Assembly: GCA_020725805.1 (NCBI GenBank)
Contig: DYEF01000099.1
Span: forward strand, 1-42,124
DNA length: 42,124 nucleotides
Origin: Bdellovibrio sp.
GTDB lineage: Bacteria > Myxococcota > SpSt-1050
Direction: 5' to 3'
The translations under genes were made by a program, and so were the position numbers. The first letter of the stretch is position 1; each line of letters opens with the position of its first letter. Under the pieces are notes generated by a model, which saw only the letters and a list, made by a program, of their open reading frames with translations, was not told the DNA's origin and ran no database searches. Positions 3,696 through 33,733 of this stretch are shown in pieces.

Positions 3696-3724
3696 TGACA
3701 GTCCTCCTGAGGTTGACACTCAAT

Positions 3725-3876: not shown

Positions 3877-3928
3877 TGTCAGCGGTGGCTGTCAGGCCGT
3901 CTGACTAATTAATTTCTGACAGAGGAGG
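3877..3928 (+). promoter_or_regulatory. Structured gdhA leader covering the ribosome site
   Basis: TGTCAG (3877-3882), CTGTCAG (3889-3895), CTGAC (3901-3905) and CTGACAG (3916-3922) can pair in exclusive ways. A local hairpin joins 3891-3895 to 3901-3905; a longer one joins 3889-3895 (or 3877-3882) to 3916-3922, ending beside the GAGGAGG ribosome site (3922-3928). This could act as a translational switch. A TTGACA at 3801-3806 may be the -35 box, but no good -10 follows it. No known riboswitch class was recognised. Confidence 0.4.
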
Positions 3929-3936
3929 ATTGAATT

Positions 3937-5292: not shown

Positions 5293-5316
5293 TAAGAAAG
5301 ATTACTTTTTAATATG

Positions 5317-5347
5317 AAAGCCCTGCTTTGTCGCAGGGCTTTTTTTT
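5317..5347 (+). terminator. Intrinsic terminator of gdhA
   Basis: AAAGCCCTGC (5317-5326), a 6-base loop and GCAGGGCTTT (5333-5342) form a perfect 10-bp stem followed by a run of eight T (5340-5347). Confidence 0.92.
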
Positions 5348-5452
5348 GGTAAAAACAGGATATCGGAACAAAAACCAAAATTCCCCGATTATCATTGACA
5401 ATAATATGTTTTTATCATTACTTACTACCGTATTTATCAAGGAGGACTGTGT

Positions 5453-7715: not shown

Positions 7716-7726
7716 GGGAGGCAAAT

Positions 7727-10700: not shown

Positions 10701-11272
10701 GAGCCGGATACAACGACATCATCAGGTCCGGAAAATTCGGTTTCACGGACGATGCATCCATAAGAAATGGCCGTGAACTGCTCCGGAGTAAAAAGGCAAA
10801 GGCAGTTATAACATTCAACTCCGACATGAGTGATATTCTTGGGTACAAACCTGAACTTCTGGTGGTATTTGATATTTTCGGGAGCGAACTGGCAAAGAAG
10901 GCGGACTTTGTGATTCCGACATCTCCCGTTGCGGAGTCAGAGGGGTCAATTGTAAACTTCGAAGGGAGATTATATAAATATCAGAGGGTCTTCAATCCGC
11001 TTGCAGGCTACACCACATTCGATGCACTCGGACAACTCCTCAGAGCAACAGGGGGCACAAATCCGTCGATGGACTCAGTAAGAATGACTATTGCAAACTC
11101 AATCGGTTTTTATGGCCTGCTGAAGGAGGAAAAACAGGACGGATATCTGAGACCTGAAGTAAAAGGAATCTCTTTTGTTAAGATGAGTTCAGATAAGCTG
11201 ACCCCGGCACCTTATAAATCCAGAACAACATATTCGGTTGTTGCCGAAGCAACTATTCCCAAAAAGAACTAA
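7727..11272 (+). CDS. NfnB/GltD-NuoG fusion subunit (StnA-like)
   Basis: This 1181-residue fusion has in order: a [2Fe-2S] ferredoxin domain (Cys37, 48, 51, 65); a GltD/NfnB unit (about 95-580) with Fe-S cysteines 101-156, FAD motif GGGPSG (199-204), NADPH motif GGGNTA (329-334) with YRRTR after it, GQEP and FTGGDVFTGPMAAIDAIGAGR; a two-[4Fe-4S] ferredoxin domain (Cys617-627 and 660-670); a molybdopterin-family [4Fe-4S] site (Cys696, 699, 703, 731); and a NuoG-like molybdopterin-fold domain to the C-terminus. It probably binds NADPH and ferredoxin and passes electrons to the NuoEF subunits, as in the three-subunit Sporomusa-type Nfn (Stn) transhydrogenase. The fold lacks a convincing Mo active site, and no H-cluster motifs are present. 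GGGAGG precedes the ATG. It is last in the operon, before a terminator. Confidence 0.85.
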   Translation: MANLVKIKINGKEISADSSKTILNVARENGIDIPTLCYDPRLPPYGSCLVCVVELRNQNRLVMSCTTPVAEGMDIYTDSEMALESRQKALSMLLSNHYADCRGPCYVNCPANVDVQGYLALANAGLYYEALELIRETNPMPLTCGRVCVRYCEANCRRKDIDSPVAVNVMKRYVSDLEYDKLPPPKITPKNGKKVAVVGGGPSGLTCAYYLAKKGYSVTIYDKQPKLGGMLRYGIPEYRLPQAILDKEINYLLAHGIEAKNNVKIGTDITLSQLRKENDAVYVAVGAWTAKPMGIENENHSSILSGIKFLEQVKRDGPPKLEGTVVVIGGGNTAIDAARTALRCGAKKVAILYRRTRNEMPADHDEVEDAIAEGVEIQFLVAPKKAVVENDKLKGIECYRMELGEPDSSGRRRPVAIKGSEFVYECNYIVSAIGQEPVLDFAENLKITKWNTIEASPETYATNIEGVFTGGDVFTGPMAAIDAIGAGRKAAMVIDSYVRTGKVEKFKTEFLSKKTAVAEIDKSFFESQPKTERTKIPKSDPKERVHNYKEVDHIITKDMAEKESLRCLSCGCNSVFDCDLKVFSGEYAARQESYHGKAKKYKVDDRHPFIILDANKCILCGRCVRYCSDVIGISALGFVNRGFDTVVKPALDKPLQETTCISCGNCIEVCPTGAIVHRIISNRPGPYRTIPADSVCSFCSVGCELTVNHVGKEIFYINGKQKDRYVEPELCAKGRFGTYYVKNPDRLYSPLVKGSKVDISNAIVELSDVLKKSKPEETVFVVSERMSNEELYLTGALASKLGIRNIISVNELCQNDSLNISDYTGTNFSTAKCEDIAKAEYVVVFGNAGTLAYTKVFGFELKKAVNNGAKLIWIGEESKEFRKYVHRFIPAKDISAFVNGVVAKLISEKRYDKSAENIPGFGELSKNYKEDNQDTAFVSELFSDLSRRVISVFNTDYIFGNNQSDLASVINLTLLSGRLTNGLVLLRNESNGAGYNDIIRSGKFGFTDDASIRNGRELLRSKKAKAVITFNSDMSDILGYKPELLVVFDIFGSELAKKADFVIPTSPVAESEGSIVNFEGRLYKYQRVFNPLAGYTTFDALGQLLRATGGTNPSMDSVRMTIANSIGFYGLLKEEKQDGYLRPEVKGISFVKMSSDKLTPAPYKSRTTYSVVAEATIPKKN

Positions 11273-15092: not shown

Positions 15093-15926
15093 TCAGGCCT
15101 TATTCAAAAATCTTGTTAGTAAGTTTTTTAGTGCAAATTTTCTGTATTCTTCGGTAGACCTGACATCTGATATAGGCTTCAGGTATTTAAGCATTATATC
15201 GCAGGCACTTGAAATAACCGAACGTGTCAGAATTCTCCCCTGTAGAAATCTTTCGGTTTCATAAAGTCTGATTGGCACAGGTGCAACCGACCCTGCGGCA
15301 AGTCTTATTGTTTCAATACCTTTTTTATCCTTTTTAATCAGTCCTGCAAATGATACCTTTGCTATTGACTGGGCTCTTCTCGTCCCGATCTTGAAGAATT
15401 CCGAGTAGATATCAGCGGGCGGGAGCGGAATGCGGACTGAATATATGAACTCATTATCTGAAAGTGCTGTAAGTTTATATCCCCTGAAAAATTCAGATAG
15501 TTTCAGTTCGCGGTTACCGCTTTGTGAGGCAAGTATCAGACTTGCATCATAAATCAATAATGCCGGAGGTAAATCTGCAGCGGGAGAGGCATTTGCAATA
15601 TTTCCGCCGATAGTACCCATATTTCTTATTGCCGGAGCACCTATGGTTGACGCAGCATACGACAGGACAGGAAGAAGCTTTTTTATTGTTCTATCTGCGG
15701 CAATGACCGAATGTGTTGTGAGTGCCCCTATCTCAACATAATTCTTTTCTTCTTTTACAAATGAGAGATTTTTAATGCCGGAGAGGGATATTACTTTCTG
15801 GGGATGGGACTTGTTGTTGTGCCATTGAGCAAGAAGGTCTGTACCGCCCGCAAGGAGAACCGCATTGCTGTGTTTTGCTCTTATTTCAAACAATTCCTTG
15901 ATGTTTGAAGGGGTGAATATATTCAT
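15093..15926 (-). CDS. Molybdenum hydroxylase FAD subunit (CoxM-like)
   Basis: This 277-residue subunit of the xanthine dehydrogenase/CO dehydrogenase family binds FAD. The N-terminal FAD segment LLAGGTDLLAQWHN (about 23-36) and the loop APAIRNMGTIGGNIANASPAADLPPALL (about 95-120) are diagnostic; the C-terminal CO_deh_flav_C domain follows. It accepts electrons from the 2Fe-2S subunit and passes them to NAD+ or another carrier. It is the last gene of a leftward operon, three bases after the 2Fe-2S gene. The substrate cannot be read from this subunit. Confidence 0.92.
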   Translation of the reverse strand: MNIFTPSNIKELFEIRAKHSNAVLLAGGTDLLAQWHNNKSHPQKVISLSGIKNLSFVKEEKNYVEIGALTTHSVIAADRTIKKLLPVLSYAASTIGAPAIRNMGTIGGNIANASPAADLPPALLIYDASLILASQSGNRELKLSEFFRGYKLTALSDNEFIYSVRIPLPPADIYSEFFKIGTRRAQSIAKVSFAGLIKKDKKGIETIRLAAGSVAPVPIRLYETERFLQGRILTRSVISSACDIMLKYLKPISDVRSTEEYRKFALKNLLTRFLNKA

Positions 15927-15929
15927 AGC

Positions 15930-16394
15930 TCATTTTCTCCCCGATGCCAGTTCGACTGCTTCGAAAATAGACCTGTATCCGGTGCATCTGCAGAGGTTCC
16001 CCGACAGAGCCGTTTTGATGGTCCTGCGGTCAATATTTTTATTGTTTGACAAAAGGTAATAGGTAGCCATTACCATTCCGGGAGTGCAAAACCCGCACTG
16101 CACTGCATTTGATTCCAGAAACGATTTCTGAATCCTTTTCCCCAGAGCCGTCTTTTCGACGCCTTCTATTGTAAGTATATCTGTTCCGTCACTAAGCACT
16201 GCTGCAAGCTGGAGACAACCCAGTTTCAGTTCGCCGTCAATAATGACACTGCATGCTCCGCATTCGCCCTCTCCGCAACCCTCCTTGGTACCTGTAAGTC
16301 CGAGTCTGTCTCTGAGGACGTCCAGCAGTCTCGATTCTTCTTCAAACTGAATATTATGTACCTTTCCGTTTATCTGCCATTTTCTTTTTATCAT
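15930..16394 (-). CDS. Molybdenum hydroxylase [2Fe-2S] subunit (CoxS-like)
   Basis: This 154-residue electron-transfer subunit has the two expected clusters: a plant-ferredoxin-type site on Cys40, 45, 48 and 60 (GCGEGECGAC...GC), and an alpha-helical site on Cys100, 103, 135 and 137 (CGFCTPG ... CRCTGY). It bridges the molybdenum and FAD subunits. Its ATG overlaps the stop of the large-subunit gene by four bases, showing translational coupling. Length and cysteine spacing are standard. Confidence 0.94.
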   Translation of the reverse strand: MIKRKWQINGKVHNIQFEEESRLLDVLRDRLGLTGTKEGCGEGECGACSVIIDGELKLGCLQLAAVLSDGTDILTIEGVEKTALGKRIQKSFLESNAVQCGFCTPGMVMATYYLLSNNKNIDRRTIKTALSGNLCRCTGYRSIFEAVELASGRK

Positions 16395-18646
16395 ACAAGT
16401 CCTCTGTTTTTCATATATTTGAGTATGGTTTCCGGATTTATCGGTATTTCGTTTATCTCGATTCCGAGTGCATTCAGGACGGCATTTCTCAGGGCAGGGG
16501 CTACTCCGTTGTGGGGAAGCTCTCCGAGTCCCTTCGCCCCGAAAGGTCCCCTCGGGTACGGAACCTCGATAATCTCTGTCTTAATCTCCGGCATATCCTC
16601 TGACGTCGGAATTATATATGTCTGGAGTCTGTTCTGAAAGAATTTTCCGTTTTTCAGTTCGCATTTTTCCATCAGTCCGTACCCCAGTGCCTGTATGGAG
16701 CCGCCTTCGAGCTGACCAATTGCAGACTTCGGATTGATAGCCCTGCCGATTTCATAGACGGTGTAAAGATTAACCGGTCTTATTTCGAAGGTGTATTTGT
16801 TGACCTCGACCTCTATGGCAATAGCGCCCCATGAATAGACAGGATATGCGGTACCTTTGTAATTCTGCTCATCCCATACCTGTTCGGGAGGGAAATCATA
16901 CTGCTTTTCGATGTAGAGTGGTTTCTTTGAGGCTATTTCAGATGCCGCCTTCCTGAACGGTATCCGCTTTTTCGATTTTGTGAGCAAAAGTATACCGTTA
17001 TCGATCTTAATTTTTTCTTTATAATGTTTTTCGAACAGATTGAGAAGCTCGTCACAGCACAATGTGATTATCCTTCCTACTATCATAGTAGTTCTGGAAG
17101 CGACTGTGGGACCCGAATTCGGGACTCTCGAGGTATCAGGAAGCGGACATTTTACCAGCTCTATCGGTATATTGAGTTTGCTTGCGGCAATCTGCGGGAA
17201 TATTGTCTGAACTCCCTGCCCCATATCTGTGTTTGCTATGAGAATTTCAAGGGTCCCGTCCGGGTTCAGCTGAATCGCGGCCTTCGATTTGAGCATCAGT
17301 TCCCCGCTGCCGGTAAATGAGCCTCCGTGCAGTACTGTGGCAATACCTATGCCTTTAAGTATCTCTGTCTCTCTGCTCTTGCTCTGCTTTCTGTAGATTT
17401 CAAATTTCTTTTTGAAATCGGATATACTGATAAGTCGGTCAAGACACCTGTCAATGGCAACTCCCTCGGTAAGCTGCTGGCCTGTTGCCATCTCTGAACC
17501 GGTCTTCAGGAGATTTTTCCTTCTTACTTCATAGGGACTCAGTTTGAGGCGGTGGGCTATCGTGTCGATAAATGCCTCCATAGCGAATAGAGTCTGAGGG
17601 GCACCGAATCCCCTGAATGCACCCGGCGGAGGAATATTCGATTTTACTGCCTTTGCTGTAATCCTGACGTTGGGTATACTGTATACGGAACAGGCGTGCA
17701 GGGTTCCGCGGGAAAGAACAACCGGTGATAACGTTACATATGCCCCTGCATCGAAAAGTATCGTACTCTCCAGCACGAGGATTTTTCCGTCTTTCATTAC
17801 ACCGGCTTTGTGATGAACGTATGAAGGGTGTCGCTTGGTAGTAAATGAGATATCCTCTTCGCGGTCGTAAATCATCATTACCGGTTTGCCGGATTTCTGG
17901 CACAGCAGTGCTGTATGTGCTGCGAGCAGACTCGGGTAATCTTCCTTCCCTCCGAATGCCCCTCCTGTAGGTGCCTGAATTATTACGATGTCATCTTCCT
18001 TTTTGCCTGTTACCTTTGCCACAGCTGGTCTGACGTAGTACGGGCATTGCAGAGAACCAACACAGTAGAATTTGCCGTTTTTCTGATATGTCATCATACC
18101 CTGTGGTTCCAGATATAAATGCTCCTGAAAACCCGTATAGAACTCGGCCTCTACGATATAGCTTGCCTCGTCGAATCCTTCCTTTATATTGCCTTTGTTT
18201 ATCTGTGGCTGATAAAAGTATGTCAGGGAATGGGGCTCTCTTTTGTATGTCTTGACTATTTCTTCCAGTCCGAGAAGAGGTGTCTCTTCTTCGACCTCGA
18301 CTTTGATATGTCTTAATGCCTCATAGGCCTTTCTGATGTTTTTGGCGGCAATCAGGGCTACAGGCTCTCCGAGATATTCGATCTGTCCGGATGCAAGGCA
18401 GGGCATATCATCTTTGATTATGTGGATATAATTTTCACCTTTGATATCCTTTGCGGTTACTACAGTGATATCTGAAAAATCAAAATTTTTGTCGAACTTT
18501 ATCTCTTTGAGTTTGCCTTTTGAGACAGGTGACCTCACAGTTAGACCAAACAGCATATCGGGCATCTGAATGTCGGCAATAAATTTAATTTTACCGGTAA
18601 CCTTATCCCATCCGTCTGTTCTGTCTATATTTTTTCCAATATACAT
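16391..18646 (-). CDS. Molybdenum hydroxylase large subunit
   Basis: This 751-residue molybdopterin subunit of the xanthine dehydrogenase/aldehyde oxidase family hydroxylates an N-heterocycle or oxidises an aldehyde. Seen are the N-terminal domain (GWDKVTGKIKFIADIQMPDML), the cofactor segments APTGGAFGGKEDYPSLLAAH and PPPGAFRGFGAPQTLFAMEA, TDMGQGVQTIFPQIAA, and the conserved catalytic Glu709 in GAKGLGELPHNG. The CO dehydrogenase-type active-site motif with its special Cys was not found, so CO oxidation is unlikely. The frame extends to 18676, but GAGGA (18656-18660) and the promoter at 18677-18705 place the start at ATG 18646. No XdhC/CoxF-like maturation gene is nearby. Purines or nicotinate-like compounds are possible substrates; this is a guess. 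Confidence 0.92.
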   Translation of the reverse strand: MYIGKNIDRTDGWDKVTGKIKFIADIQMPDMLFGLTVRSPVSKGKLKEIKFDKNFDFSDITVVTAKDIKGENYIHIIKDDMPCLASGQIEYLGEPVALIAAKNIRKAYEALRHIKVEVEEETPLLGLEEIVKTYKREPHSLTYFYQPQINKGNIKEGFDEASYIVEAEFYTGFQEHLYLEPQGMMTYQKNGKFYCVGSLQCPYYVRPAVAKVTGKKEDDIVIIQAPTGGAFGGKEDYPSLLAAHTALLCQKSGKPVMMIYDREEDISFTTKRHPSYVHHKAGVMKDGKILVLESTILFDAGAYVTLSPVVLSRGTLHACSVYSIPNVRITAKAVKSNIPPPGAFRGFGAPQTLFAMEAFIDTIAHRLKLSPYEVRRKNLLKTGSEMATGQQLTEGVAIDRCLDRLISISDFKKKFEIYRKQSKSRETEILKGIGIATVLHGGSFTGSGELMLKSKAAIQLNPDGTLEILIANTDMGQGVQTIFPQIAASKLNIPIELVKCPLPDTSRVPNSGPTVASRTTMIVGRIITLCCDELLNLFEKHYKEKIKIDNGILLLTKSKKRIPFRKAASEIASKKPLYIEKQYDFPPEQVWDEQNYKGTAYPVYSWGAIAIEVEVNKYTFEIRPVNLYTVYEIGRAINPKSAIGQLEGGSIQALGYGLMEKCELKNGKFFQNRLQTYIIPTSEDMPEIKTEIIEVPYPRGPFGAKGLGELPHNGVAPALRNAVLNALGIEINEIPINPETILKYMKNRGLV

Positions 18647-18676
18647 AAAGTATAATCCTCGGCAGATGACTGACAT

Positions 18677-18843: not shown

Positions 18844-19200
18844 TTACTCTTTGTCCTGTTCGGTGAGCCTGAGTTCGGTCAGATTTTTTACCTCTCCCAT
18901 ATACATAAAGGAACCGGGTTTTGATTCTACCTCAAGGTAATTATAGAGAAATTCGAAAACCTTTTCTGCGATTTCATCGTCTGTTAGTATTGTAACAATA
19001 CTTTTCTCTACGTAGAAGAATTTGCCTATTATTCTTGAATCTACAACCGTAAGACCTCTTGCGGTATTCCATGTAAATCTGCTTATACCGAATTTGTTTC
19101 TGACTTCTTCAATAATTTTGTCAGTTGTATCTCTGCCTGTGATTATTGTAATGAATTTGCCTTTTTTGCTGTTTTGTTTAAGGAATTCCGGGCTGCTCAT
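18844..19200 (-). CDS. PII-like protein, second copy
   Basis: This 118-residue protein has the beta-alpha-beta pattern of the PII/GlnB fold: FITIITGRDTTDKIIEEVRNKFG, a central WNTARG stretch where the T-loop would lie, then KSIVTILTDDEIAEKVFEFLYNYL and SFMYMGEV. PII-like proteins are trimeric cytoplasmic sensors that bind nucleotides or other small ligands and dock on a partner. No uridylylation-type Tyr context is evident. It follows the first PII-like gene by one base (GGGGA ribosome site) and is the third gene of the DUF1538 operon, so the membrane protein is the obvious partner. It is divergent in sequence from its neighbour. Confidence 0.72.
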   Translation of the reverse strand: MSSPEFLKQNSKKGKFITIITGRDTTDKIIEEVRNKFGISRFTWNTARGLTVVDSRIIGKFFYVEKSIVTILTDDEIAEKVFEFLYNYLEVESKPGSFMYMGEVKNLTELRLTEQDKE

Positions 19201-19201
19201 A

Positions 19202-19576
19202 TCATTCCCCGCAGTTTTCGCTGATTTTTTCCAGAATCTCCTGAGGGATATAGGTAGCAGCCTTCAGCAGCGGAGTTACATACATAAAGCCCATTCCCGG
19301 AGTATCAAGTTTGCCGGCCAGAAACATCTTTTCGAATACCAGGTCAACCTGCTCATTTGCCACTACGATGTTTAAGACCTCCTTTTCGACGTCCACTGCC
19401 ACGCCTACAATTCCGAGCCTTTCTCTTACGCCCATACCCCTTGCGTAGTAAATCGTGGCGCCCTGTGCACCGACTTCCATTGCGGCCTTTACTATATCAT
19501 CTGCTACCCCTTTCTGGACAATGCAGGTAATGAGTGAAATATCCTTTAGTATAATCATTTGTCTCATATGATTCAT
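19202..19576 (-). CDS. PII-like protein, first copy
   Basis: This 124-residue member of the P-II superfamily shows LITCIVQKGVADDIVKAAMEVG, QGATIYYARGMGVRERLG (beta strand and T-loop region), VEKEVLNIVVANEQVDLVFEKM and a C-terminal GKLDTPGMGFMYVTP strand like the closing strand of GlnB-type proteins. It is better called PII-like than a nitrogen regulator, because no amtB, glnA or glnD is near. AAGGAG lies 10 bases before ATG 19576. The gene starts one base after the DUF1538 stop, implying tight co-expression and probably direct control of that membrane protein. Confidence 0.78.
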   Translation of the reverse strand: MNHMRQMIILKDISLITCIVQKGVADDIVKAAMEVGAQGATIYYARGMGVRERLGIVGVAVDVEKEVLNIVVANEQVDLVFEKMFLAGKLDTPGMGFMYVTPLLKAATYIPQEILEKISENCGE

Positions 19577-19577
19577 T

Positions 19578-21320
19578 TTATGCTACTCCTTTTTCCGGGG
19601 TTTTTTTAGAAATATTTTCTGAGATATGTCTTCTCGAAACAATAAATTTTATCAGAAGACCCATCGAAAGAACAGATATTATGGGGCATATTGATGCAAG
19701 CGATAATATACCGAATCCTTCTGTTACGCTTAGTGAATTGCCGAATCCGAGTCCCATTGCCAGTACCAGCGGAACTGTAACAGGTCCCGTGGTCACACCG
19801 GCTGAGTCCCACGCAACATTTACGTACTCCTCGGTTGATAATACCGTAAGTATCAGACCTATCAGATAGAACGGGAGCAGCAGATAATGAAGGGGAATGT
19901 CAAATGTGATCTTCAGGATACCGAGCATTATTCCTATGCCTACCCCGAAAGAGACAGAATACATAAGCATCGATTTCTTGAAAACCCCGTTGGTGAGATT
20001 TTCGACGGTATATCCGAGTGAGTTCAGTGCAGGTTCTGCGAGTGTGGCTCCGAAGCCGAGACAAAATGCAAACAGAAGGGCAATGACGATTCCGAGGGAA
20101 TAACTGTAGAGTGGGGATTTTTCGACGCTTTCCAGTTTTGCAAAGGCGGCAGGTACCAGTCCTCCGGATTGATTTCCGAGATTTGAAAGTCCGTAAGAAA
20201 GACCGATGTTGAATATTATCATACCGATTATGAGAAGGACTATTCCATAAGTTATATAAATCGGATTTCTGAGCTTCTCTTTCAGAATAAACTTGAGTAC
20301 AATGAGAAGGAACAGGATAAGCGGGACGGTAGCCCTTATTCCGAGAAGGATTTCCGCATAAGGTGTTTTGTCAATTAATGAAGTTTCGGTATTGCCGCCT
20401 GTCTTAAGAAGTTCGGAAATGTTGTTTATGTCAATCGGTGAAGTGTAATAGATTATGTTGGCAAAGGCGAGAACGGCGATTATCGGGAAGAGAGATGCAA
20501 GTGTTACGATTCCGAAACCCGAGAGAGAAGATTCGCCCTTACCCCCCGAAGAGGCTATGCCTATTCCGAGTGCAAGAACGAGTGGTACGGTAACAGGTCC
20601 TGTGGTTACAGCTCCGCAATCCCATGCGAGACCTATTGTGCTTTTTAATTGTTCGTTAAAGACAGTAATTAAGGTAAGTCCTATTGTGGGAACAAGTGTT
20701 ATGTAGATGAGACTTTTAAGACTCCATCCCTTGAGAAATCTGAGTGTCCCTATAACAGCAGCGATTCCGACGCCGATTCCGACAGCAACCGGCAGAATAT
20801 CACCGTACTGGTTGAGCATAAGAAAGAGGTATGTTGCCTTTCTGACGTCTACAATTGAACCGGCAGTCTTTAAGGCGCCGATAGCCGGCTCGGCATACGT
20901 AACTCCGACACCGAGAAGGAATGTTATCAACATAAGGGTCGGAAGCCTCGATTTCTGTGGAAGTTTATTGCCTAAAAGTTCGCCGAAAGGCATAAGACCC
21001 TTAAGTAGTCCCTCCATAAAGAACATCAGTCCTACAATAACAGCTATTATGCCAAACGTTATTGTAAGGGCATTTTCAATGGTCTGCCTTAAAAATATGA
21101 TTTGAAAGAGCGCAAGGTAAATTACAAGCGGAATAACGGCTATAAGCTGTTCCCTGAATTTGTTACTGATATACGGGTAGAGAAGGCGATATATGTCGAT
21201 TGACTCCAGCTTTATCTTTTCCCGCCTGTCTATATGCTTTACAATACTGTTATAGCTTACCTGTATATGTCTGAATGCAGTCTCCTGCACCAGTCTGAAA
21301 AATTTGACTTCTTTTGCCAT
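19578..21320 (-). CDS. Duplicated DUF1538 membrane protein
   Basis: This 580-residue integral membrane protein has many hydrophobic segments and a clear internal duplication: GLAWDCGAVTTGPVTVPLVLALG (about residue 230) recurs as NVAWDSAGVTTGPVTVPLVLAMG (about 500), each followed by a GFGI(V/L)(T/S)LAS segment; AEPA motifs occur in both halves. This is the two-repeat DUF1538 family, whose transport or other activity is not established to my knowledge. Conserved Pro/Gly/Asp in the membrane repeats suggest an inverted or parallel repeat transporter or channel. The open frame extends to 21368, but GAGG lies 6 bases before ATG 21320 (MAKEVKFFRL). It heads an operon with two PII-like genes, an arrangement resembling transporter/PII pairs such as AmtB-GlnK. 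Confidence 0.85.
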   Translation of the reverse strand: MAKEVKFFRLVQETAFRHIQVSYNSIVKHIDRREKIKLESIDIYRLLYPYISNKFREQLIAVIPLVIYLALFQIIFLRQTIENALTITFGIIAVIVGLMFFMEGLLKGLMPFGELLGNKLPQKSRLPTLMLITFLLGVGVTYAEPAIGALKTAGSIVDVRKATYLFLMLNQYGDILPVAVGIGVGIAAVIGTLRFLKGWSLKSLIYITLVPTIGLTLITVFNEQLKSTIGLAWDCGAVTTGPVTVPLVLALGIGIASSGGKGESSLSGFGIVTLASLFPIIAVLAFANIIYYTSPIDINNISELLKTGGNTETSLIDKTPYAEILLGIRATVPLILFLLIVLKFILKEKLRNPIYITYGIVLLIIGMIIFNIGLSYGLSNLGNQSGGLVPAAFAKLESVEKSPLYSYSLGIVIALLFAFCLGFGATLAEPALNSLGYTVENLTNGVFKKSMLMYSVSFGVGIGIMLGILKITFDIPLHYLLLPFYLIGLILTVLSTEEYVNVAWDSAGVTTGPVTVPLVLAMGLGFGNSLSVTEGFGILSLASICPIISVLSMGLLIKFIVSRRHISENISKKTPEKGVA

Positions 21321-21538: not shown

Positions 21539-24500
21539 ATGGTAAGAGAAGGTATCTGTTTAATTTTCCTGGTTGCAGTTTCGTCATTTGCTTTCGGAGA
21601 GACTATTCTTGTTGATGATTTTGAGGATGTTGCTGACTGGACCGGACTTGAGAGGGACTCTGCCGTTAAGATGGAGGGAGCTTATTCCGGTATCTGGAGA
21701 GATACAGTAAAGGTTACGAAGGTGAAAAAGGATTTTAATCCGCCCCTTGATCTGAGCGGCTATGATTTTCTGGGCTTCTGGATTCACTCCGAAAACGCAA
21801 ACGGTGCAAAACTGCAGCTCGTTCTGGACTCCGATAATCCATCCGACCCTGCCGGTTGGGATTACTATTCAAGGGAGATTGTTATAGATTTTTCCGGCTG
21901 GAAGTATTTTAAGATTCCTCTCTCGTCATTTGGTATTTCCAGAAATCCTGCCGGGTGGAATAAAATTAATTATATATCATTCAATTCAACCGGATGGAAC
22001 CATTCTCCCCTCTCTGATACTCTCCTTAGATTTGATTCTATGGTCTTTTCCCAATCTGCAATGGAGCTGTCGGGCAAGAGCCAGTACTGGCTCGCAAATG
22101 ACTTTGTCTATGAATTCCGTTTTATTATCAGGAACAGAACCCAGACAGCTCTGGAATATTCTCTTGAATTAAACAAATCGATTTTGGGATTCGAGTACTA
22201 TCTTTCAGATAAGGTTGTCAGTATCCCTCCGGCGGGTGTGAAGGAGATAACCCTTCTGGTAAATGTTACACCAGACATAATTGTGCCGCAGAATTTCCTG
22301 AAATCCGATAGAGTTGTAGTTTTTCTTAAAAGAAATGGAAAAACCGAGGATATATTGGAGATGACGGCAGCAGTGCCGGTTATGAAAAAGGAACATCCTT
22401 ATATGTTGTTGGATTCGGATGACATTTCAAGGATATCTGAATGGGTGGGTAAGTATGGTTGGGCAAAATCACAGGCAGACTCGGTAATTAAACAGGCTGA
22501 CAATTGGGAGAGCAGTTTTAAGACGAAATACGGTCTTGAGGAATGGGACCTGCCTCCTGAAGGCGGGCAGTGGGGTATGTGGTATGTCTGTAAAGACGAT
22601 GGTTCGTATCTGACGTATACCCCTCCGATGACTCACAGGTGTCCGAAGTGCGGAAAGACCTATTCAGGCTGGCCTTATGATCAGGTAATCTATGCCCGTA
22701 TGCATAATGATCTTGCAAAGGCAGCGCTGAGGCTTTCGCAGAGCTACAGACTGACGAAAGAAACGAGGTATGCAACGGCCGCAAGGGAAATCCTTTTGCG
22801 ATATGCCCAGAAATATCTGCTCTATCCTGTTCACGATAAGGACAATAAAGTGACTAACAGCGGAGGAAGGGTTTTGTCCCAGACTCTGGATGAATCCTCC
22901 TGGTTTCTGGATATTGCCTGGGCGTATGAACTCTTGAAAGGCAGCGGTATTTTCAGCAAACAAGAGGAGATTATAATCGAAAATTCGCTCCTTTATGAAG
23001 GTTATAAGGTTATAGAAAAGAGCAAGGCGGGAAAGAGCAACTGGCAGTCCTGGCACAATGTTGCAATGGCATCGATTGGGTTTGCCACCGATGATTTCGG
23101 AATTGTCGCATCTGCGATAAATGATGATGCCAACGGATTTTTATTCCAGCTTAAAGAGAGTATTTCGCCTGACGGATTCTGGTATGAAGGTTCGTGGGGA
23201 TATCACTTCTTTGCATTGCGTCCTCTTGTCTTTACGGCGGAGATGATGAAAAGGGCAGGAATGGATTTTACATTAAACGAATTCTTTCTAAAGATGTTTA
23301 CATTTCCGATACATTTCTCTGAACCCGACGGAAGACTTCCGCCTTTCAATGACAGCGGGGTTGTGGATATAAGAGAGCAGAAGGGGCTTTATGAGCTTGC
23401 CTATAACTGGACAGATATGGAAATAATGACCTTCCCGCTCGATGAATTTTCAAGGCCTTATGAGGCGCTCTTCTGGGGAGCCGAGAAGATAGGAAAACCG
23501 GGTTCATTTACAAATCAGAGTATGCTGTTTGGGGATAGCGGGTATGTAATTGCACGGACAAACGGTGAGAATCCGAATTATCTTGCCTCAGACTTTGGTC
23601 CTCACGGGGGATGGCACGGACATTATGATAAATTGGGTTTTGTTTTTTATGCTCTGGGGAAGGAGATAGCAGTTGATGCAGGTACACATTCTTATGCACT
23701 TCCGATTCACGATGCATATGACAGGACGACCGTCGCACACAACACGGTTGTTGTTGATTCTCAGAACCAGAAAGAGGCAAACGGAGATATAAGCTACTTC
23801 TTCTCTTTAAGGGATTTGAATATATTCAGAATTAAATCGGATAACGCAAACGAAACGGCTAACCTTGCAAGACAGATGATTATAACAGATAATTATCTCT
23901 ACGACAGGTTTGATGCAGATTCAAAGGACGGCGCTGAACACAAATATGACTGGGTGGTTCATCTTAACGGAAGACTCAATGAAGTTGAGAAGATTTCGTC
24001 ACCATATTCATTTGCCGAAAATAAAGACGGTTATCAGTATCTGAAGAATACGATGAAGGTCGAGAATGATAAATCTGATTTCCTTCTTGTCGATTACTCT
24101 GATAGTCCGGGCGGGCAGGCGGGTTCGGTATGGGTAAGTGAGAGTGGTATTTCTGCGTCTTTTGTCAAGGATTGCAGTATTGCAGAAAGCGGCAGATGCA
24201 GCGGGAAAATGAGTTATGATTTTACTACTGTCAGGAAGGGGTATGTGCTCTATACAGTCCCGGTCCCGAATCTGAATATGGGGAATCTGCTCGGGGTCTC
24301 GTGCTATATAAAGGGAGACAACAGCAACAATTCTCTTAAGATCAGGATAACGGATTCAACAGATGAGAGATTTGTGTATACAGTCGGAAATATTGATTTT
24401 GGTGATTTCAGAAAGATCGGGGCAACGGATGTGGAGAAGTGGAACCATTATCTGGGGAACAATGACGGGAAGATTGATTACCCTGTTAAGAGTTTTATTG

Positions 24501-25504
24501 TTGAAATCGGATATCTGAGCGGCGGCGCATTGAATTCCTCGGTCTATACAGATGATATTGTTTTGACTTTTGAATCAGGTGAATACACTCTGAGTGATTT
24601 CGAGGTAATGATGAGATATCTGGGAATCTCTTCTTATGAAGAGGATTTATTGCCTGAGGTGATTGCCGGCACATCTCCCTTGGGATGGGGAGAAGATGTC
24701 TCCTTTCTTATGAAGAGAAAGTTTTCAAAGGATACGGTATTCAGGACTCTTTTCTGTATTTCCGATAACGGTCTTGTGAAGGAGGAATGCCGTATTATAC
24801 CGCCGAAATCGGTTTGGTGCACGGATGTCCTGTGTGACGGTGTGTCAATAAGAAACCGGAATTTCATGGATTATATTTTGTTTAAGGAGACAAAGAGCGA
24901 TACCGGTTATAAGAAGATAGGAATTACGGCCGAAGATACCGCTTTTGAGACTGACGGACTTGCCGGGTTTGTCAGAAAGGATAATTCCGGATATAATAAG
25001 TGTACATTGCTTCAGGGTTCGCATATCTCTGAAAAGGGGGTTATGATAATAGACTATGCAGGGTACCTGAGTAAGATTACAGTCAATTACGAGGATGAAG
25101 GAGTTCGTCTCGGTATTGAGCTTTCAGACTCCCTTTCTGCCAGACTGAGGATATTTGCACCTAAGGCACAACTTGTTCTGGTCAACGGAAATGTACAGCA
25201 GTATTTACGGGAAGGTGATTACGTTGTTCTGAATGGTGTAATTACCGGTAATGATGAAATTCTTATAGAAGACAGAACCGATATTGCCTTCGATACATAT
25301 TCTGATTCTGCAGATGATATATCCCGGCCTGAAGACCTTAGGTATGATGTCCTTGCAGATGATACAGGTAACGATGCTGGTATATTTGCAGATTCTGATG
25401 TCTCTTCTGATTCGAATTCCGTCTTTACTGATACAGGTCCGAACGAAATCCGGGCAGATGATTCCGGAAAAGATAGCGGATGTTCCTGCAATCTTCTTTT
25501 CTGA
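21539..25504 (+). CDS. Secreted heparinase II/III-type polysaccharide lyase
   Basis: This 1321-residue exported protein has a signal peptide (1-20), a CBM-like beta-sandwich (about 22-170; DDFEDVADWTG), an alpha-helical toroid (about 285-640) with NWQSWHN (501-507), a heparinase II/III beta-domain with HGGWHGHYDKL (689-699) and AHNTVVVD (733-740), a second beta-sandwich inserted at about 862-1012, and an Asp/Ser-rich tail (1245-1321) ending in CSCNLLF. The His/Tyr-bearing motifs are those of alginate/heparin/uronate lyases that beta-eliminate uronic acid polymers; the substrate is not readable. A CPKCGKTYSGWPYD zinc-knuckle-like segment lies near residue 366. The tail looks like a surface tether. 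No transporter or sugar catabolic genes are adjacent. Confidence 0.88.
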   Translation: MVREGICLIFLVAVSSFAFGETILVDDFEDVADWTGLERDSAVKMEGAYSGIWRDTVKVTKVKKDFNPPLDLSGYDFLGFWIHSENANGAKLQLVLDSDNPSDPAGWDYYSREIVIDFSGWKYFKIPLSSFGISRNPAGWNKINYISFNSTGWNHSPLSDTLLRFDSMVFSQSAMELSGKSQYWLANDFVYEFRFIIRNRTQTALEYSLELNKSILGFEYYLSDKVVSIPPAGVKEITLLVNVTPDIIVPQNFLKSDRVVVFLKRNGKTEDILEMTAAVPVMKKEHPYMLLDSDDISRISEWVGKYGWAKSQADSVIKQADNWESSFKTKYGLEEWDLPPEGGQWGMWYVCKDDGSYLTYTPPMTHRCPKCGKTYSGWPYDQVIYARMHNDLAKAALRLSQSYRLTKETRYATAAREILLRYAQKYLLYPVHDKDNKVTNSGGRVLSQTLDESSWFLDIAWAYELLKGSGIFSKQEEIIIENSLLYEGYKVIEKSKAGKSNWQSWHNVAMASIGFATDDFGIVASAINDDANGFLFQLKESISPDGFWYEGSWGYHFFALRPLVFTAEMMKRAGMDFTLNEFFLKMFTFPIHFSEPDGRLPPFNDSGVVDIREQKGLYELAYNWTDMEIMTFPLDEFSRPYEALFWGAEKIGKPGSFTNQSMLFGDSGYVIARTNGENPNYLASDFGPHGGWHGHYDKLGFVFYALGKEIAVDAGTHSYALPIHDAYDRTTVAHNTVVVDSQNQKEANGDISYFFSLRDLNIFRIKSDNANETANLARQMIITDNYLYDRFDADSKDGAEHKYDWVVHLNGRLNEVEKISSPYSFAENKDGYQYLKNTMKVENDKSDFLLVDYSDSPGGQAGSVWVSESGISASFVKDCSIAESGRCSGKMSYDFTTVRKGYVLYTVPVPNLNMGNLLGVSCYIKGDNSNNSLKIRITDSTDERFVYTVGNIDFGDFRKIGATDVEKWNHYLGNNDGKIDYPVKSFIVEIGYLSGGALNSSVYTDDIVLTFESGEYTLSDFEVMMRYLGISSYEEDLLPEVIAGTSPLGWGEDVSFLMKRKFSKDTVFRTLFCISDNGLVKEECRIIPPKSVWCTDVLCDGVSIRNRNFMDYILFKETKSDTGYKKIGITAEDTAFETDGLAGFVRKDNSGYNKCTLLQGSHISEKGVMIIDYAGYLSKITVNYEDEGVRLGIELSDSLSARLRIFAPKAQLVLVNGNVQQYLREGDYVVLNGVITGNDEILIEDRTDIAFDTYSDSADDISRPEDLRYDVLADDTGNDAGIFADSDVSSDSNSVFTDTGPNEIRADDSGKDSGCSCNLLF

Positions 25505-25686: not shown

Positions 25687-25714
25687 TTGACAAGAAGGTC
25701 TTGGTTAATATTAT
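25687..25714 (+). promoter_or_regulatory. Promoter of por operon
   Basis: TTGACA (25687-25692), a 16-base spacer and TATTAT (25709-25714) predict a transcript start near 25721. The leader of about 80 bases contains a small CCTCA/TGAGG hairpin (25728-25738). This excludes the longer porG frame that would begin at 25701. Confidence 0.65.
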
Positions 25715-25802
25715 CACTCCGTCCTCATTGAGGCTTAATAACCTTGATGCAGACGTTTTTGAAAGTAAATTAATTACCTTAATTTACGGAAGGAAGGTCA
25801 AT

Positions 25803-26351
25803 ATGCTTGAAATCAGATTTCACGGAAGAGGCGGACAGGGGGCAGTGACCTCTGTTGAACTCTTTGCCATCTCCGCCATTGCCGAAGGGAAGTATGCACA
25901 GGGTTTCCCTTCCTTCGGACCTGAGAGGAGAGGCGCCCCTGTTATGGCATTTCTGAGGATTTCGGAGAAGCCTGTCAGAATAAGGTCAAAGATCTACAGC
26001 CCCGATGTAGTGGTGATTCTCGACCCGTCACTTGTTGATGTGGCCAATCCGGTATCAGGGCTCAAAAAGGGCGGAATAGTGGTAATAAATACATCTAAGC
26101 CGCACGAGGAGTTCTCGGAGAAGTTCAGAGGCTTTAAGGTAGCTGTAGTAGATGCCTATAAAATAGCAAAGGAAGAGATGGGCGTGAATATTGTCAATAC
26201 CACAATGCTTGGTGCACTCATCAGGGCAACCGATGCGATAAAACTCAAATCAATAGAAGAACCTGTACGGGAGCGTTTTGGCAGGATTGCCGAAAAGAAT
26301 ATTAATGCCCTGAAGAGGGCCTATAAAGAGACAAGTATTAAGGAGTTGTGA
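25803..26351 (+). CDS. porG: Pyruvate-type ferredoxin oxidoreductase, gamma subunit
   Basis: The 182-residue gamma subunit carries the family signature MLEIRFHGRGGQGAVTSVELFAI at its start, followed by YAQGFPSFGPERRGAPVMAFLRI and a later NTTMLGALIRATDAI. In the four-subunit 2-oxoacid oxidoreductases this subunit helps bind CoA. The frame could be extended to 25701, but the promoter lies there, and GGAAGG precedes ATG 25803, which gives the family's normal N-terminus. It is the first gene of a seven-gene run, one base before porD. Confidence 0.93.
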   Translation: MLEIRFHGRGGQGAVTSVELFAISAIAEGKYAQGFPSFGPERRGAPVMAFLRISEKPVRIRSKIYSPDVVVILDPSLVDVANPVSGLKKGGIVVINTSKPHEEFSEKFRGFKVAVVDAYKIAKEEMGVNIVNTTMLGALIRATDAIKLKSIEEPVRERFGRIAEKNINALKRAYKETSIKEL

Positions 26352-26352
26352 T

Positions 26353-26646
26353 ATGCCGAAACCAATGGAAGAATATAAGTGGCACGAACTTAGGATTGGC
26401 TGTGTAATCGAAGAGGTCGGCTCTGCAAGGGAGTATAAGACCGGTGGCTGGCGTTCAATGAAGCCGGTATGGGATGAGTCCAGATGCATAAAATGCGGGT
26501 TGTGCTGGTTGTACTGCCCCGATGCGGCTATATATCAGAAGGAGGACGGCTTCTTTACGGCAGATCTGGATTACTGCAAGGGTTGCGGTATCTGTGCACA
26601 TGAGTGCTGGCCGAAGGCAATTAAAATGGTGGAGGACGAGAAATGA
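26353..26646 (+). CDS. porD: Pyruvate-type ferredoxin oxidoreductase, delta subunit
   Basis: This 97-residue ferredoxin-like subunit has two [4Fe-4S] motifs, CIKCGLCWLYCPDA (about residues 42-55) and CKGCGICAHECWPKA, and carries electrons out of the TPP site. AAGGAG lies shortly before its ATG. The stop overlaps the porA start by four bases. The N-terminal region (KTGGWRSMKPVWDESRC) is typical of PorD. Confidence 0.94.
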   Translation: MPKPMEEYKWHELRIGCVIEEVGSAREYKTGGWRSMKPVWDESRCIKCGLCWLYCPDAAIYQKEDGFFTADLDYCKGCGICAHECWPKAIKMVEDEK

Positions 26647-27818
26647 AAAAGGGAATAGAAGTATCAATAGCTGCCTCTGAGGCGGCAAAACTTGCAAGGG
26701 TTGAAGCGATTGCTGCATACCCCATTACACCTCAGACACATATAGTCGAACACCTGTCCGATATCGTTGCAAACGGTGAACTGGATGCTGTCTATGTGAC
26801 AGTGGAATCCGAACACTCGGCAATGTCAGCCTGTATAGGCACATCGGCGGCCGGTGCGAGGACATTTACGTCTACAAGCGCACAGGGACTCGAACTGATG
26901 CACGAAATTCTGTTTATTGCCTCTGCATTGAGGCTTCCTATCGTAATGGCAGTGGCAAACAGGGCACTCTCGGCACCGCTTTCAATCTGGAATGACCATT
27001 CGGATGTGATGGCGGCAAGGGACTGCGGCTGGATACAGCTCTTCTGTGAAAACGGTCAGGAGGTGGTGGATACCATAATAATGGCATTCAGAATCGCCGA
27101 GGACCACAGGGTACTGCTGCCCGTTATGGTTAATCTTGACGGTTTTCAGCTTTCACACGTGGTCGAACCGATAGATTTCCCCGACCAGAAGGATGTGGAT
27201 AAATTCCTGCCGGATTATAAACCTCTCTATACACTCCATCCCGACAGGCCGTTGACTATGGGCGCATATGCCACACCGGAGCTTTATACAGAGGCAAAGT
27301 TTGCTCAGGAACAGGCTATCATTAATTCACTGCCGGTAATAAAGGAGATTCTCTCCGAGTATTCGAAGAAGTTCAAACGGAAATATAACATTCTCGAGAC
27401 ATACAATTTCGAAAAATCGGATACAGTTTTTATTGCAATGGGTTCAGTTAACGAAAATATTATGACCGCAATCGACACCCTCAAAAAGGATAAGAAGTCC
27501 TGCGGTCTTGTTAAGGTCAGACTATTCAGACCATTTCCGGATGCCGAACTCGCCGCACTCCTTGAGAAGAAGAAGAACGTAATAGTAATCGACAGGGCTA
27601 TGCCTGCGGGCGGTATGAACGGCCCGGTATACAATGAAGTTGCAGCGCTTTTGCGAAGGTATAACATAAAGGCAAACCTGTTCAACTATATCGTAGGGCT
27701 TGGAGGAAGGGACGTCCTTCCGGAAGATTTTATCTCAGTCTATGACGAGGTAGTTAAGGCCAAAAAAGGTAAGTCAAAGGAAAAAACCAACTATAAAGTT
27801 ATAGGAGTCAGAGCATGA
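26643..27818 (+). CDS. porA: Pyruvate-type ferredoxin oxidoreductase, alpha subunit
   Basis: This 391-residue subunit holds the pyrimidine-binding half of the TPP enzyme. Visible are AAYPITPQTHIVEHLSD (about 23-39), ESEHSAMSACIGTSAAGART (59-78), TSAQGLELMHEILFIASALRLPIVMAVANRA, and SIWNDHSDVMAARDCGWIQLFCENGQE, which resembles PorA of pyruvate enzymes more than the 2-oxoglutarate or indolepyruvate branches. It oxidises the 2-oxoacid with CoA to acyl-CoA, CO2 and reduced ferredoxin. It overlaps its neighbours by four bases on both sides. 2-Ketoisovalerate is an alternative substrate, given the aminotransferase elsewhere in the window. Confidence 0.92.
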   Translation: MKKGIEVSIAASEAAKLARVEAIAAYPITPQTHIVEHLSDIVANGELDAVYVTVESEHSAMSACIGTSAAGARTFTSTSAQGLELMHEILFIASALRLPIVMAVANRALSAPLSIWNDHSDVMAARDCGWIQLFCENGQEVVDTIIMAFRIAEDHRVLLPVMVNLDGFQLSHVVEPIDFPDQKDVDKFLPDYKPLYTLHPDRPLTMGAYATPELYTEAKFAQEQAIINSLPVIKEILSEYSKKFKRKYNILETYNFEKSDTVFIAMGSVNENIMTAIDTLKKDKKSCGLVKVRLFRPFPDAELAALLEKKKNVIVIDRAMPAGGMNGPVYNEVAALLRRYNIKANLFNYIVGLGGRDVLPEDFISVYDEVVKAKKGKSKEKTNYKVIGVRA

Positions 27819-28747
27819 TGTTACCAAATATAGAAATTTATGCACCAAATGTTGTGCCGAAGGAAGAGTTTGTTGTGTCCGGTCACCGTGCCTGTCAGGG
27901 GTGTGCGGAGGTTCTGGCATTAAGACATGCACTGAAGATCTTTGGTAAGGATACAATAATTGCGATGGCCACGGGGTGTATGGAGATTATCTCAACCCCG
28001 CTTCCGACAACTGCATGGACACAGCCATGGATTCACGTTGCGTTTGAGAATGCAGCAGCTGTTGCATCAGGTATCGAGGCCGGACTCAGGATTCTCAGGA
28101 AGAAGGGCAAGATACCCGATAAGGATATCCATATAGTAGCAATCGGAGGTGACGGCGGGACCGCGGACATCGGACTGCAGGCATTATCCGGGGCTCTCGA
28201 GAGATATCACAAATTTACCTACATCTGCGTCGACAACGAAGCATATATGAATACAGGCATTCAGAGGTCCTCTTCCACTCCGTACGGTGCGTCCACGACC
28301 ACATCTCCAGCAGGGAAGGTCTCGATAGGACAGCAGACATGGAAGAAGGATATGGTAAAGATTGCGGCTGCCCATAACATTCCCTATGTTGCAACCGCCT
28401 GTCCGTCGTATCCGTTCGATCTGATAGAGAAGGTCAAGCAGGCAAAGATGGCAAATGGTCCGTCTTATCTGCATTTCCTCTCGGTCTGCCCTACGGGCTG
28501 GAGAATTCCCTCGGAAGCCGCTATCAAATACGGCAGGCTTGCAGTAGAGACAGGAATATTCCCTCTCTACGAAATCAAAGACGGCAAATACAGGATTACA
28601 TACAATCCCGAGCCCTTAAGACCGGTCAAGGATTATCTCAAAGGTCAGGGCAGATTCAGACATCTGACTGACGAACATATCGAGTATATCCAGAAAAGAA
28701 CCAATGAACACTGGGAAGAGATCAAGAAGCTTGCTTCACTGAAATAG
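27815..28747 (+). CDS. porB: Pyruvate-type ferredoxin oxidoreductase, beta subunit
   Basis: This 310-residue TPP-binding subunit shows SGHRACQGCAEVLALRHAL (Cys pair for a [4Fe-4S] cluster), MATGCMEIISTPLPTTAW, the TPP-Mg motif IGGDGGTADIGLQALSGALER followed by DNEAYMNTGIQRSSSTPYGA, and SVCPTGWR near the end. The double ATG at its start overlaps porA by four bases. Only eight bases separate its stop from the NuoE-like gene, with GGAGG between, so the oxidoreductase and the NADH module appear to be one transcript. Confidence 0.95.
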   Translation: MMLPNIEIYAPNVVPKEEFVVSGHRACQGCAEVLALRHALKIFGKDTIIAMATGCMEIISTPLPTTAWTQPWIHVAFENAAAVASGIEAGLRILRKKGKIPDKDIHIVAIGGDGGTADIGLQALSGALERYHKFTYICVDNEAYMNTGIQRSSSTPYGASTTTSPAGKVSIGQQTWKKDMVKIAAAHNIPYVATACPSYPFDLIEKVKQAKMANGPSYLHFLSVCPTGWRIPSEAAIKYGRLAVETGIFPLYEIKDGKYRITYNPEPLRPVKDYLKGQGRFRHLTDEHIEYIQKRTNEHWEEIKKLASLK

Positions 28748-28755
28748 GAGGTTTT

Positions 28756-29223
28756 ATGGAAACAGACAGGGCAAAACTTGACAATACTATAGCAAAATAC
28801 GGCAATGACAGGTCGCTTCTTCTGAGTATGTTTCAGGATATTCAGAGGGAGTACAGATATCTGCCCAAGGAGGCAATAAAATATGTATGTGAGAAACTGA
28901 ATATCCCTGTGGTGAAGGGGTATGAAATGGCGACTTTCTATAAATCCCTCTCGCTTGTGCCCAGAGGGAAGCATACGATTCACGTATGTATGGGAACTGC
29001 CTGCCACCTCAAGGGTGCACCCGGTGTACTTGAGGCTTTCGAGAGAGACCTGAAGGTGAAACGTGGCGGCACTACAGAGGATATGCTCTTTACTCTCGAA
29101 TCGGTAAACTGCCTCGGAGCCTGTGCCCTTGCCCCTCTTGTAAGGGTGGATGAGAAGGATTTTGGCAAGGTAAACCAGACGAGTGTAAAAAATATTATTG
29201 ATGAATATAAACGCGGAGAGTGA
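28756..29223 (+). CDS. NuoE-like [2Fe-2S] subunit of the Por operon
   Basis: The 155 residues form a NuoE/HydC-family thioredoxin-fold subunit with [2Fe-2S] ligands Cys78, 83, 119 and 123 (CMGTAC ... CLGAC) and the N-terminal LLSMFQDIQREYRYLPKEA helices. It is a paralogue of the protein at 5453, which has the same cysteine spacing within each pair but a different sequence. AGGAGG precedes the ATG. The NuoF-like gene follows after 3 bases. Its place after porB is unusual and suggests service to the 2-oxoacid oxidoreductase. Confidence 0.88.
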   Translation: METDRAKLDNTIAKYGNDRSLLLSMFQDIQREYRYLPKEAIKYVCEKLNIPVVKGYEMATFYKSLSLVPRGKHTIHVCMGTACHLKGAPGVLEAFERDLKVKRGGTTEDMLFTLESVNCLGACALAPLVRVDEKDFGKVNQTSVKNIIDEYKRGE

Positions 29224-29226
29224 AAT

Positions 29227-31080
29227 ATGTCAGTTTCAATTCAGAGACTCGAAGAGATAAAAAAGGATTTTTTGTCAAAACAGAAAGTATTCCAGAAGAC
29301 CATAAGGGTCTGCTGCGGGACAGGGTGTATCTCCTCAGGCGCATTAAAGGTTCTCGAGAAGCTAAGAACTGCCCTGAAGACGGAAGGACTTGATGAGAAG
29401 GTAAAGGTTATCGAGACGGGCTGTCACGGTTTCTGTGAGAGAGGCCCGATATTTGTCTTCGGTGAGAATGATATCTTCTATCAGATGGTCGGAAAAAGGA
29501 ATATTGATGCGGATGTCAGCGCCCTCATAGAGACTGTCAAATCAGATAAGATTGCCCAGAATCTTCTCTATCCTGACCCGAATGACAAGACTAAGAAGTT
29601 TGTGGCAACAAGAGAGATACCTTTTTACAGCGGTCAGCAGAAGATTGTTCTTCACCTCAATGGTTATATCGACCCCGAGAGCATAGAAGACTATATTGCA
29701 AGAGGCGGTTATGTGGCACTCCACAAAGCACTTCAGATGAAGCCCGAGGAAGTCATTGACTGGATTGACAGGTCCGGACTAAGAGGCAGAGGCGGCGGTG
29801 GTTTCAGAACAGGCAGAAAGTGGAGGTCCTGCAGGGAGGCTCACGGCTCACCCAAATATATAGTTGCCAACGGAGATGAAGGTGACCCGGGTGCGTTTAT
29901 GGACCGTTCAATAATGGAAGGTAATCCCCACGCTATTCTTGAAGGTATGATAATAGGCGGATATGCCATTGGTTCGAATGACGGATATATTTATGTCCGC
30001 GACGAATATCCGCTTGCCGTCAAGAGACTTACAAAAGCGATTGAAGATGCAAGGAGGCTCGGACTCTTAGGTGATAATATATTTGGCACCGGCTTTAGGT
30101 TTGACATCAGAATATTCAGGGGCGGCGGCGCATTTGTATGCGGAGAATCCACGGCACTTATGCAGTCTCTCGAAGGTAAAATAGGAGAGCCCAAGGCAAA
30201 GTATATTCACACAGTCGAGAGAGGACTATGGGATAAGCCTACCAACCTTAATAATGTGGAGACCTGGGCGTGTGTCCCCCTGATTATCAATAACGGCTGG
30301 GAATGGTTTGCGAATATTGGTACAAAGAACAGTACTGGTACAAAAGTCTTTTCGCTCGTTGGAAAGGTCAACAACACCGGTCTTATCGAGGTCCCGATGG
30401 GACTGACTCTCAGAGAGATTATATTCAATCTCGGCGGCGGAATTCAGAAGGGCAGGAAGTTTAAGGCTGTTCAGACTGGAGGACCGTCCGGCGGCTGCAT
30501 CCCGGCAGAATATCTCGATACGCCCGTTGATTTCGATACGCTTACAGAACTGGGCTCAATGATGGGTTCGGGCGGAATGATAGTGATGGATGAGAGGAAC
30601 TGTATGGTGGATGTCGCAAGGTACTTTCTGAACTTTCTGGTTGAGGAGTCCTGCGGAAAGTGTGTTCCCTGCCGTGAGGGCGTAAAGAGGATGTACGAGA
30701 TTGTAGACAGGATCTGCAACGGCGAAGGCAGGGAAGGTGATATTGAGCATCTGGAGGAGCTAGGTAAGGCAGTAAAACTCGGTTCTCTCTGCGGACTCGG
30801 ACAGTCTGCGCCGAATCCGGTTCTTTCGACAATAAGGTATTTCAGGGAGGAATACGAGGAACATATCAAACATAAGAAGTGCAGGGCGGGTGTCTGTAAA
30901 CCTCTTATAACCATTAAAATCAACGAAAAGTGTAACGGTTGTATGGTCTGCGCCAGAAACTGTCCTGTCAGCTGTATCTCCGGAGAGAAGCAGAAGCCGC
31001 ACGTAATTGACCAGAGCAAATGTATTAAATGTCAGATCTGCTATGATGTATGCAGATTTGATGCCGTAACGATAGAGTAA
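29227..31080 (+). CDS. NuoF/HydB-like FMN, NAD(H) subunit of the Por operon
   Basis: This 617-residue subunit has an N-terminal [2Fe-2S] thioredoxin-like domain with full ligands (Cys29 or 30, 34, 66, 70), an FMN/NADH core with [41 protein letters not shown] and [11 protein letters not shown], a [4Fe-4S] site [16 protein letters not shown], and a C-terminal two-cluster ferredoxin domain ([15 protein letters not shown] and [11 protein letters not shown]). It matches HydB-type bifurcating subunits rather than soluble complex I NuoF, which lacks the terminal ferredoxin domain. It would reduce or oxidise NAD(H). GGAGAG precedes the ATG. It is the second NuoF paralogue in the window and differs from the first by having the complete N-terminal cluster. 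Confidence 0.9.
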
Positions 31081-31090
31081 GGAGAGGCCT

Positions 31091-33714: not shown

Positions 33715-33733
33715 AAGATGAGCCTATTAAAGT

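Follow-up and report, generated by a model that had tools for sequence, protein, structure and literature searches.

A conserved partnership between DUF1538 membrane proteins and PII-like proteins: candidate regulated cation/proton antiporters

PII proteins are a major signalling family, and their best-known transporter targets concern nitrogen and carbon. What do two of them do beside a membrane protein of the DUF1538 family? The window, by which we mean the whole 42,124-nucleotide stretch of Bdellovibrio sp. DNA analysed here (contig DYEF01000099.1), carries on its minus strand a packed trio in the order DUF1538 gene, PII-1, PII-2, with single-base gaps at 19577 and 19201. An earlier note on this DNA had described a two-repeat DUF1538 gene and two PII-like genes separated by exactly one base, and this layout is borne out. 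The features of the trio are listed below.

19578..21320, minus strand: DUF1538-DUF1538 membrane protein, 580 aa, ATG at 21320 (Pfam PF07556, E 2.7e-107; NCBIfam UmpA/UmpB below cut-off)
20460..21125, minus strand: first DUF1538 repeat, UmpA-like (Pfam; NCBIfam UmpA best on residues 53-289)
20883..20894, minus strand: AEPA motif of repeat 1, residues 143-146, at a predicted helix break (E144 invariant in 77 homologues)
20583..20621, minus strand: D-C-G-A-V-T-T-G-P-V-T-V-P motif of repeat 1, residues 234-246, at a predicted helix break (D234 invariant)
19656..20318, minus strand: second DUF1538 repeat, UmpB-like (Pfam; NCBIfam UmpB best on residues 332-563)
20028..20039, minus strand: AEPA motif of repeat 2, residues 428-431 (E429 invariant)
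19770..19808, minus strand: D-S-A-G-V-T-T-G-P-V-T-V-P motif of repeat 2, residues 505-517 (D505 invariant)
19202..19576, minus strand: PII-1, conserved PII-like protein, 124 aa, with the short conserved T-loop RERLG (Pfam P-II, E 4.1e-8)
18844..19200, minus strand: PII-2, divergent PII-like protein, 118 aa (GlnK-type profile match; PII fold predicted by AF2)

Downstream of the module, also on the minus strand, lies a three-subunit molybdenum hydroxylase of the xanthine dehydrogenase type (15093-18676), with no sign of membership. Divergent from the module, a plus-strand gene (21539-25504) encodes a protein of 1321 aa that looks secreted and has alginate-lyase and heparinase II/III-like domains. 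Further along the plus strand are an AAA ATPase followed by a McrC-like protein, forming a McrBC-type restriction pair (31951-35260), and two NuoF/NuoG-like NADH-dependent redox gene sets (5952-11272 and 28756-31804), the second of which comes after a pyruvate:ferredoxin-oxidoreductase-type set (25701-28747). Neither the window nor 38 related loci gave a riboswitch match in Rfam, and promoter and terminator scans gave signal not clearly above that of shuffled sequences.

The 580-aa protein exceeds the PF07556 cut-off twice (189.7 and 174.5 bits against 22.6), and its halves share 34% identity over 229 aligned columns. Against the NCBIfam pair NF041627/NF041628, the matches to UmpA (2.5e-70, 236.5 bits) and UmpB (4e-52, 177.2 bits) fall short of the equivalog cut-offs of 490 and 500, which the split relatives tested also miss; identity of the halves to a typical split UmpA/UmpB pair (L089) is 27-33%. 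By sequence, the window protein is a single-chain relative of UmpA plus UmpB, in which a UmpA-like and a UmpB-like half are fused. It has in common with UmpAB the Pfam family, the two homologous halves and the conserved acidic motifs, and differs in being one chain with an N-terminal extension. The AEP motif is common to all halves aligned, split and fused, and D-x-G-x-VTT followed by TVPLV is found in nearly all of them; E144, D234, E429 and D505 show no variation across the 77 window-type homologues. In the AF2 model (pLDDT 85.6, pTM 0.86) the helices are broken at these two motifs, and the model suggests 14 membrane crossings arranged as two 7-helix repeats, with both termini cytoplasmic. 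The predicted fold had no match in the PDB at E<=0.001 (best 0.075), and the sequence profile retrieved nothing there; no known structure could therefore serve as a guide to mechanism.

PII-1 passes the Pfam P-II model (PF00543; 33.9 bits, cut-off 25), its profile matches solved GlnB/GlnK chains down to 7e-8, and its orthologues are 48-72% identical to the window copy (75 aligned sequences). PII-2 lies below the same cut-off (14.2 bits against 25, E 0.059). A P-II match at E<=0.01 is obtained for 26 of 75 PII-2 orthologues, and their profile matches a solved GlnK-type PII at 4.6e-5. An AF2 model based on the 75 orthologues (mean pLDDT 87.8) has the order strand-helix-strand-strand-helix-strand, and SbtB and GlnK head its list of PDB matches (E about 6e-6), with CutA also appearing in the fold search. 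PII-2 is predicted to have the PII fold, and the claim of two dissimilar PII-like proteins in the earlier note stands, for PII-1 through Pfam and for PII-2 through this predicted fold. Orthologues of PII-2 are 15-29% identical to the window copy, which is unusually divergent even within this group by both identities and tree. In the PII-domain tree PII-1 and PII-2 fall together, PII-2 on a long branch, and the PIIs of split-type loci stand apart; many forks are unresolved. A Csx26 identity for PII-2 (NCBIfam, 15.2 bits against a cut-off of 50) was dropped as chance, and weak PII matches inside DUF1538 in other frames proved to be artefacts of over-long ORFs in one profile; the PII profile used for locus counts was built from trimmed domains.

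We compared the DUF1538-linked PII groups with a canonical GlnB from a related genome. In all groups aligned, the ATP-phosphate residues K90, R101 and R103 are absent, the T-loop is about five residues shorter and the Tyr51 region is gone. In PII-1 the T-loop sequence RERLG is almost invariant, and the T-loop base ARGxG and the G-x-G B-loop are kept. The lost residues and short T-loop suggest that the ligand is non-canonical and that the T-loop is specific to the partner. Non-canonical ligand binding is found in other PII-type proteins such as SbtB and PstA, and ARGxG with the G-x-G B-loop is what nucleotide-binding PIIs have. Both points weigh against a reading in which the PII-like proteins serve as constitutive structural subunits or as CutA-like cation sensors rather than nucleotide-controlled gates. 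That reading would draw on the missing phosphate-binding residues, on CutA in the PII-2 fold search and on the precedent of a PII-NG protein that is encoded next to a metal efflux pump and has been proposed to act as a metal sensor (PMC7726332); we consider it rather unlikely.

How regular is the association? A scan of one genome per species provided 80 window-type loci of 315 relatives; adding the window's own locus and those of two relatives in its phylum gave 83 loci to read. Of these, 82 have PII-1 after DUF1538 and 78 have PII-2; where enough downstream DNA is available the figures are 82/82 and 78/78, the loci with a missing PII being contigs that end 95-331 bases after DUF1538. Many junctions in these loci are 4-base gene overlaps. 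The hosts span at least eight phyla and include Gamma-, Alpha-, Beta- and Zetaproteobacteria, Nitrospinota, Nitrospirales, Campylobacterota, Bdellovibrionota, Verrucomicrobiota (Opitutales), Elusimicrobia and Desulfobulbaceae.

As a control for similarity bias, 369 evenly drawn Gammaproteobacteria were examined. A third of them (125) have DUF1538, mostly as split UmpA (about 250 aa) and UmpB (about 285 aa) followed immediately by a single PII-like gene. A PII gene is present in 29 of the 30 best gammaproteobacterial loci, and the thirtieth is truncated by the end of its contig; among 35 further loci, the weakest matches included, it is missing in two, both lone or partial DUF1538 halves. The converse search in the same genomes gave 140 matches of at least 40 bits to the PII-1 profile, and for at least 120 of them a listed DUF1538 gene is no more than 2.5 kb away. 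Reading the DNA adds 12, which brings those beside DUF1538 to at least 132; of the rest, contig ends truncate three, and five lie elsewhere (a few contigs went unread). Annotations of an alphaproteobacterial plasmid and of a clostridial replicon show the pairing as well. The association of DUF1538 with PII is a rule, far more than local chance.

RefSeq labels these neighbours 'P-II family nitrogen regulator', and PII-1 does share PF00543 with the proteins so named. Taken at its word, the label would make the window pair ordinary nitrogen-control PIIs (GlnB/GlnK) that sit beside a membrane protein by chance. The near-invariable linkage speaks against this, as do the deleted Tyr51 region, the lost K90, R101 and R103, and the fact that no NCBIfam P-II model scores above cut-off for either window protein; there is also no tie to nitrogen genes here. 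In the window genome, which is 97.9% complete, PII-1 is the sole Pfam P-II match, and neither AmtB (PF00909) nor a canonical GlnB/GlnK was found. Nitrogen control of the AmtB-GlnK type is very unlikely on these grounds, and we reject a nitrogen-control role as hardly credible. The same absences indicate that the window PIIs are dedicated to the DUF1538 protein, as the earlier note had claimed, and near-constant adjacency agrees. Its comparison with AmtB-GlnK holds as an analogy and no further: in both cases a PII-fold protein is encoded beside the transporter that it presumably controls, but the transporters are unrelated, and the window has two non-identical PIIs, each with the altered T-loop and ligand residues described above.

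The loci fall into several types, which differ in how many PII domains they supply and on how many chains. Type A, that of the window, has a fused DUF1538 protein (about 590 aa) with PII-1 and PII-2, and type B has split UmpA and UmpB with one PII. In type C a longer fused DUF1538 (about 635-737 aa) is accompanied by one protein in which three PII-like domains are arranged in tandem. Four such proteins were domain-checked (L132:4138-5310, L137:4075-5262, L141:1489-3108 and L147:1382-2617), the third domain being strong in L147 and weak in the other three; L162 was placed in this type by size and score. Type D combines a compact fused DUF1538 (about 500-546 aa) with a divergent PII. In type E, from Vescimonas fastidiosa, the fused DUF1538 is followed by a 224-aa protein (L183:5063-5737) whose C-terminal PII domain is clear and whose N-terminal half resembles PII weakly; it looks like a fusion of two PII-like domains. 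The four domain-checked proteins are natural candidates for a one-chain PII pseudotrimer. Since natural fusions join two or three different PII domains per chain, a PII heteromer or two input signals is plausible for the window, and the two subunits of type A, taken with the multi-domain chains of types C and E, favour a mixed PII assembly.

What would such an assembly act on? UmpAB of Halomonas zhaodongensis, a DUF1538 pair after which the NCBIfam models are named, is reported to work as a heterodimer and to have pH-dependent Na+(Li+,K+)/H+ antiport activity, the evidence being complementation of E. coli KNabc and assays in everted vesicles (PMC5484666). This one study is a limited base for antiport by DUF1538, and similar assays are reported to have yielded antiport for several unrelated membrane families (PMC5996927, PMC6055358, PMC7221264); the main activity may therefore be something other than antiport. 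From another direction, DUF1538 is among the key pH-adaptation genes in a published growth-pH model (PMC13255231). Genomic neighbours point the same way. A Na+/H+ exchanger homologue adjoins the type-A module, at 0-366 bp, in 14 of the 80 loci (L011, L016, L020, L023, L027, L028, L031, L035, L037, L039, L042, L043, L045 and L079), placed upstream, downstream or divergently, in Nitrospinota and several gammaproteobacterial lineages; the window itself has none beside the module. The representative in L079 combines Na_H_Exchanger with a C-terminal cyclic-nucleotide-binding domain. In L163 an orphan PII of the split-type clade (2961-3377) precedes a KefB-like antiporter gene (3409-5412; Na_H_Exchanger, TrkA_N and TrkA_C) by 32 bp, with no DUF1538 nearby. 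By analogy with UmpAB, the window protein probably exchanges a monovalent cation (Na+ and/or K+) for H+. To call its substrate unknown and the transporter uncharacterised, as the earlier note did, was too pessimistic in view of the UmpAB report (PMC5484666), the UmpA/UmpB identity of the halves' best NCBIfam matches, albeit below cut-off, and the recurrence of CPA-type exchangers as neighbours.

The cyanobacterial bicarbonate transporter SbtA with its partner SbtB offers a different analogy, namely a PII-gated transporter of another substrate such as bicarbonate. There too a PII-like regulator with a non-canonical ligand site is encoded beside a cation-coupled transporter, and SbtB, a carbon regulator, is the top PDB match of PII-2. 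Many hosts belong to the Nitrospina, Thiothrix, Mariprofundus and Hydrogenovibrio lineages, which are chemolithoautotrophic, but others are a gut clostridium and Bdellovibrionales. The window transporter is unrelated to SbtA by Pfam, matching DUF1538 only, and on a reading of their sequences the window PIIs lack the CGPxGC R-loop of SbtB. Na+/H+ exchangers are the commonest recurrent neighbours found, and together with the UmpAB data (PMC5484666) they make a bicarbonate-type substrate distinctly improbable.

Cation/proton exchange under PII control is the account we prefer. The trio would form one regulated transport unit, in which the two 7-helix repeats, each broken at its Ala-Glu-Pro and Asp-x-Gly-x-Val-Thr-Thr-type motifs, probably carry out the cation/H+ exchange. 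PII-1 and PII-2 most likely dock on the cytoplasmic face of the transporter through their short T-loops and would hold transport back or let it proceed depending on a small ligand; that there are two different subunits most likely reflects a mixed assembly or two inputs. Antiport by the window protein, direct contact, gating, the ligand and the stoichiometry are elements that we infer. UmpAB is active in E. coli, and PII (or P-II) is absent from the text of that paper, including its description of the clone (PMC5484666); PII is therefore probably not needed for transport, and a regulatory role is more likely than that of a transport subunit. Overall, we think it reasonably probable that the trio comprises an antiporter of monovalent cations and H+ together with the PII device that gates it, non-canonical and probably heteromeric.

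PII-controlled transporters are already known, in AmtB-GlnK, SbtA-SbtB and PII-NG beside Czc. In the last of these, too, the PII-like gene neighbours an operon for cation/proton antiport, that of the CzcABC-type proton/metal antiporters (PMC7726332), but its partner is an RND efflux system, and the window module contains no RND gene. The window also differs from split UmpA/UmpB loci, which have one PII gene to its two. Searches of open-access papers gave no description of the DUF1538-PII partnership among those listed, although RefSeq annotates both neighbours, and this form of PII-controlled transport looks new. A broader suggestion, which we offer tentatively, is that a PII branch has left nitrogen sensing to become a dedicated heteromeric gate of a family of monovalent-cation/proton antiporters, where one to three different PII domains per transporter, single-chain pseudotrimers included, combine several inputs on one antiporter. 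The two- and three-domain fusions would be ready objects for studying how work is divided among PII subunits in a trimer. If the proposed role is true, a near-universal PII partner of a widespread Na+/K+:H+ antiporter family, unmentioned in the UmpAB paper (PMC5484666), would tie cation and pH homeostasis to PII signalling.
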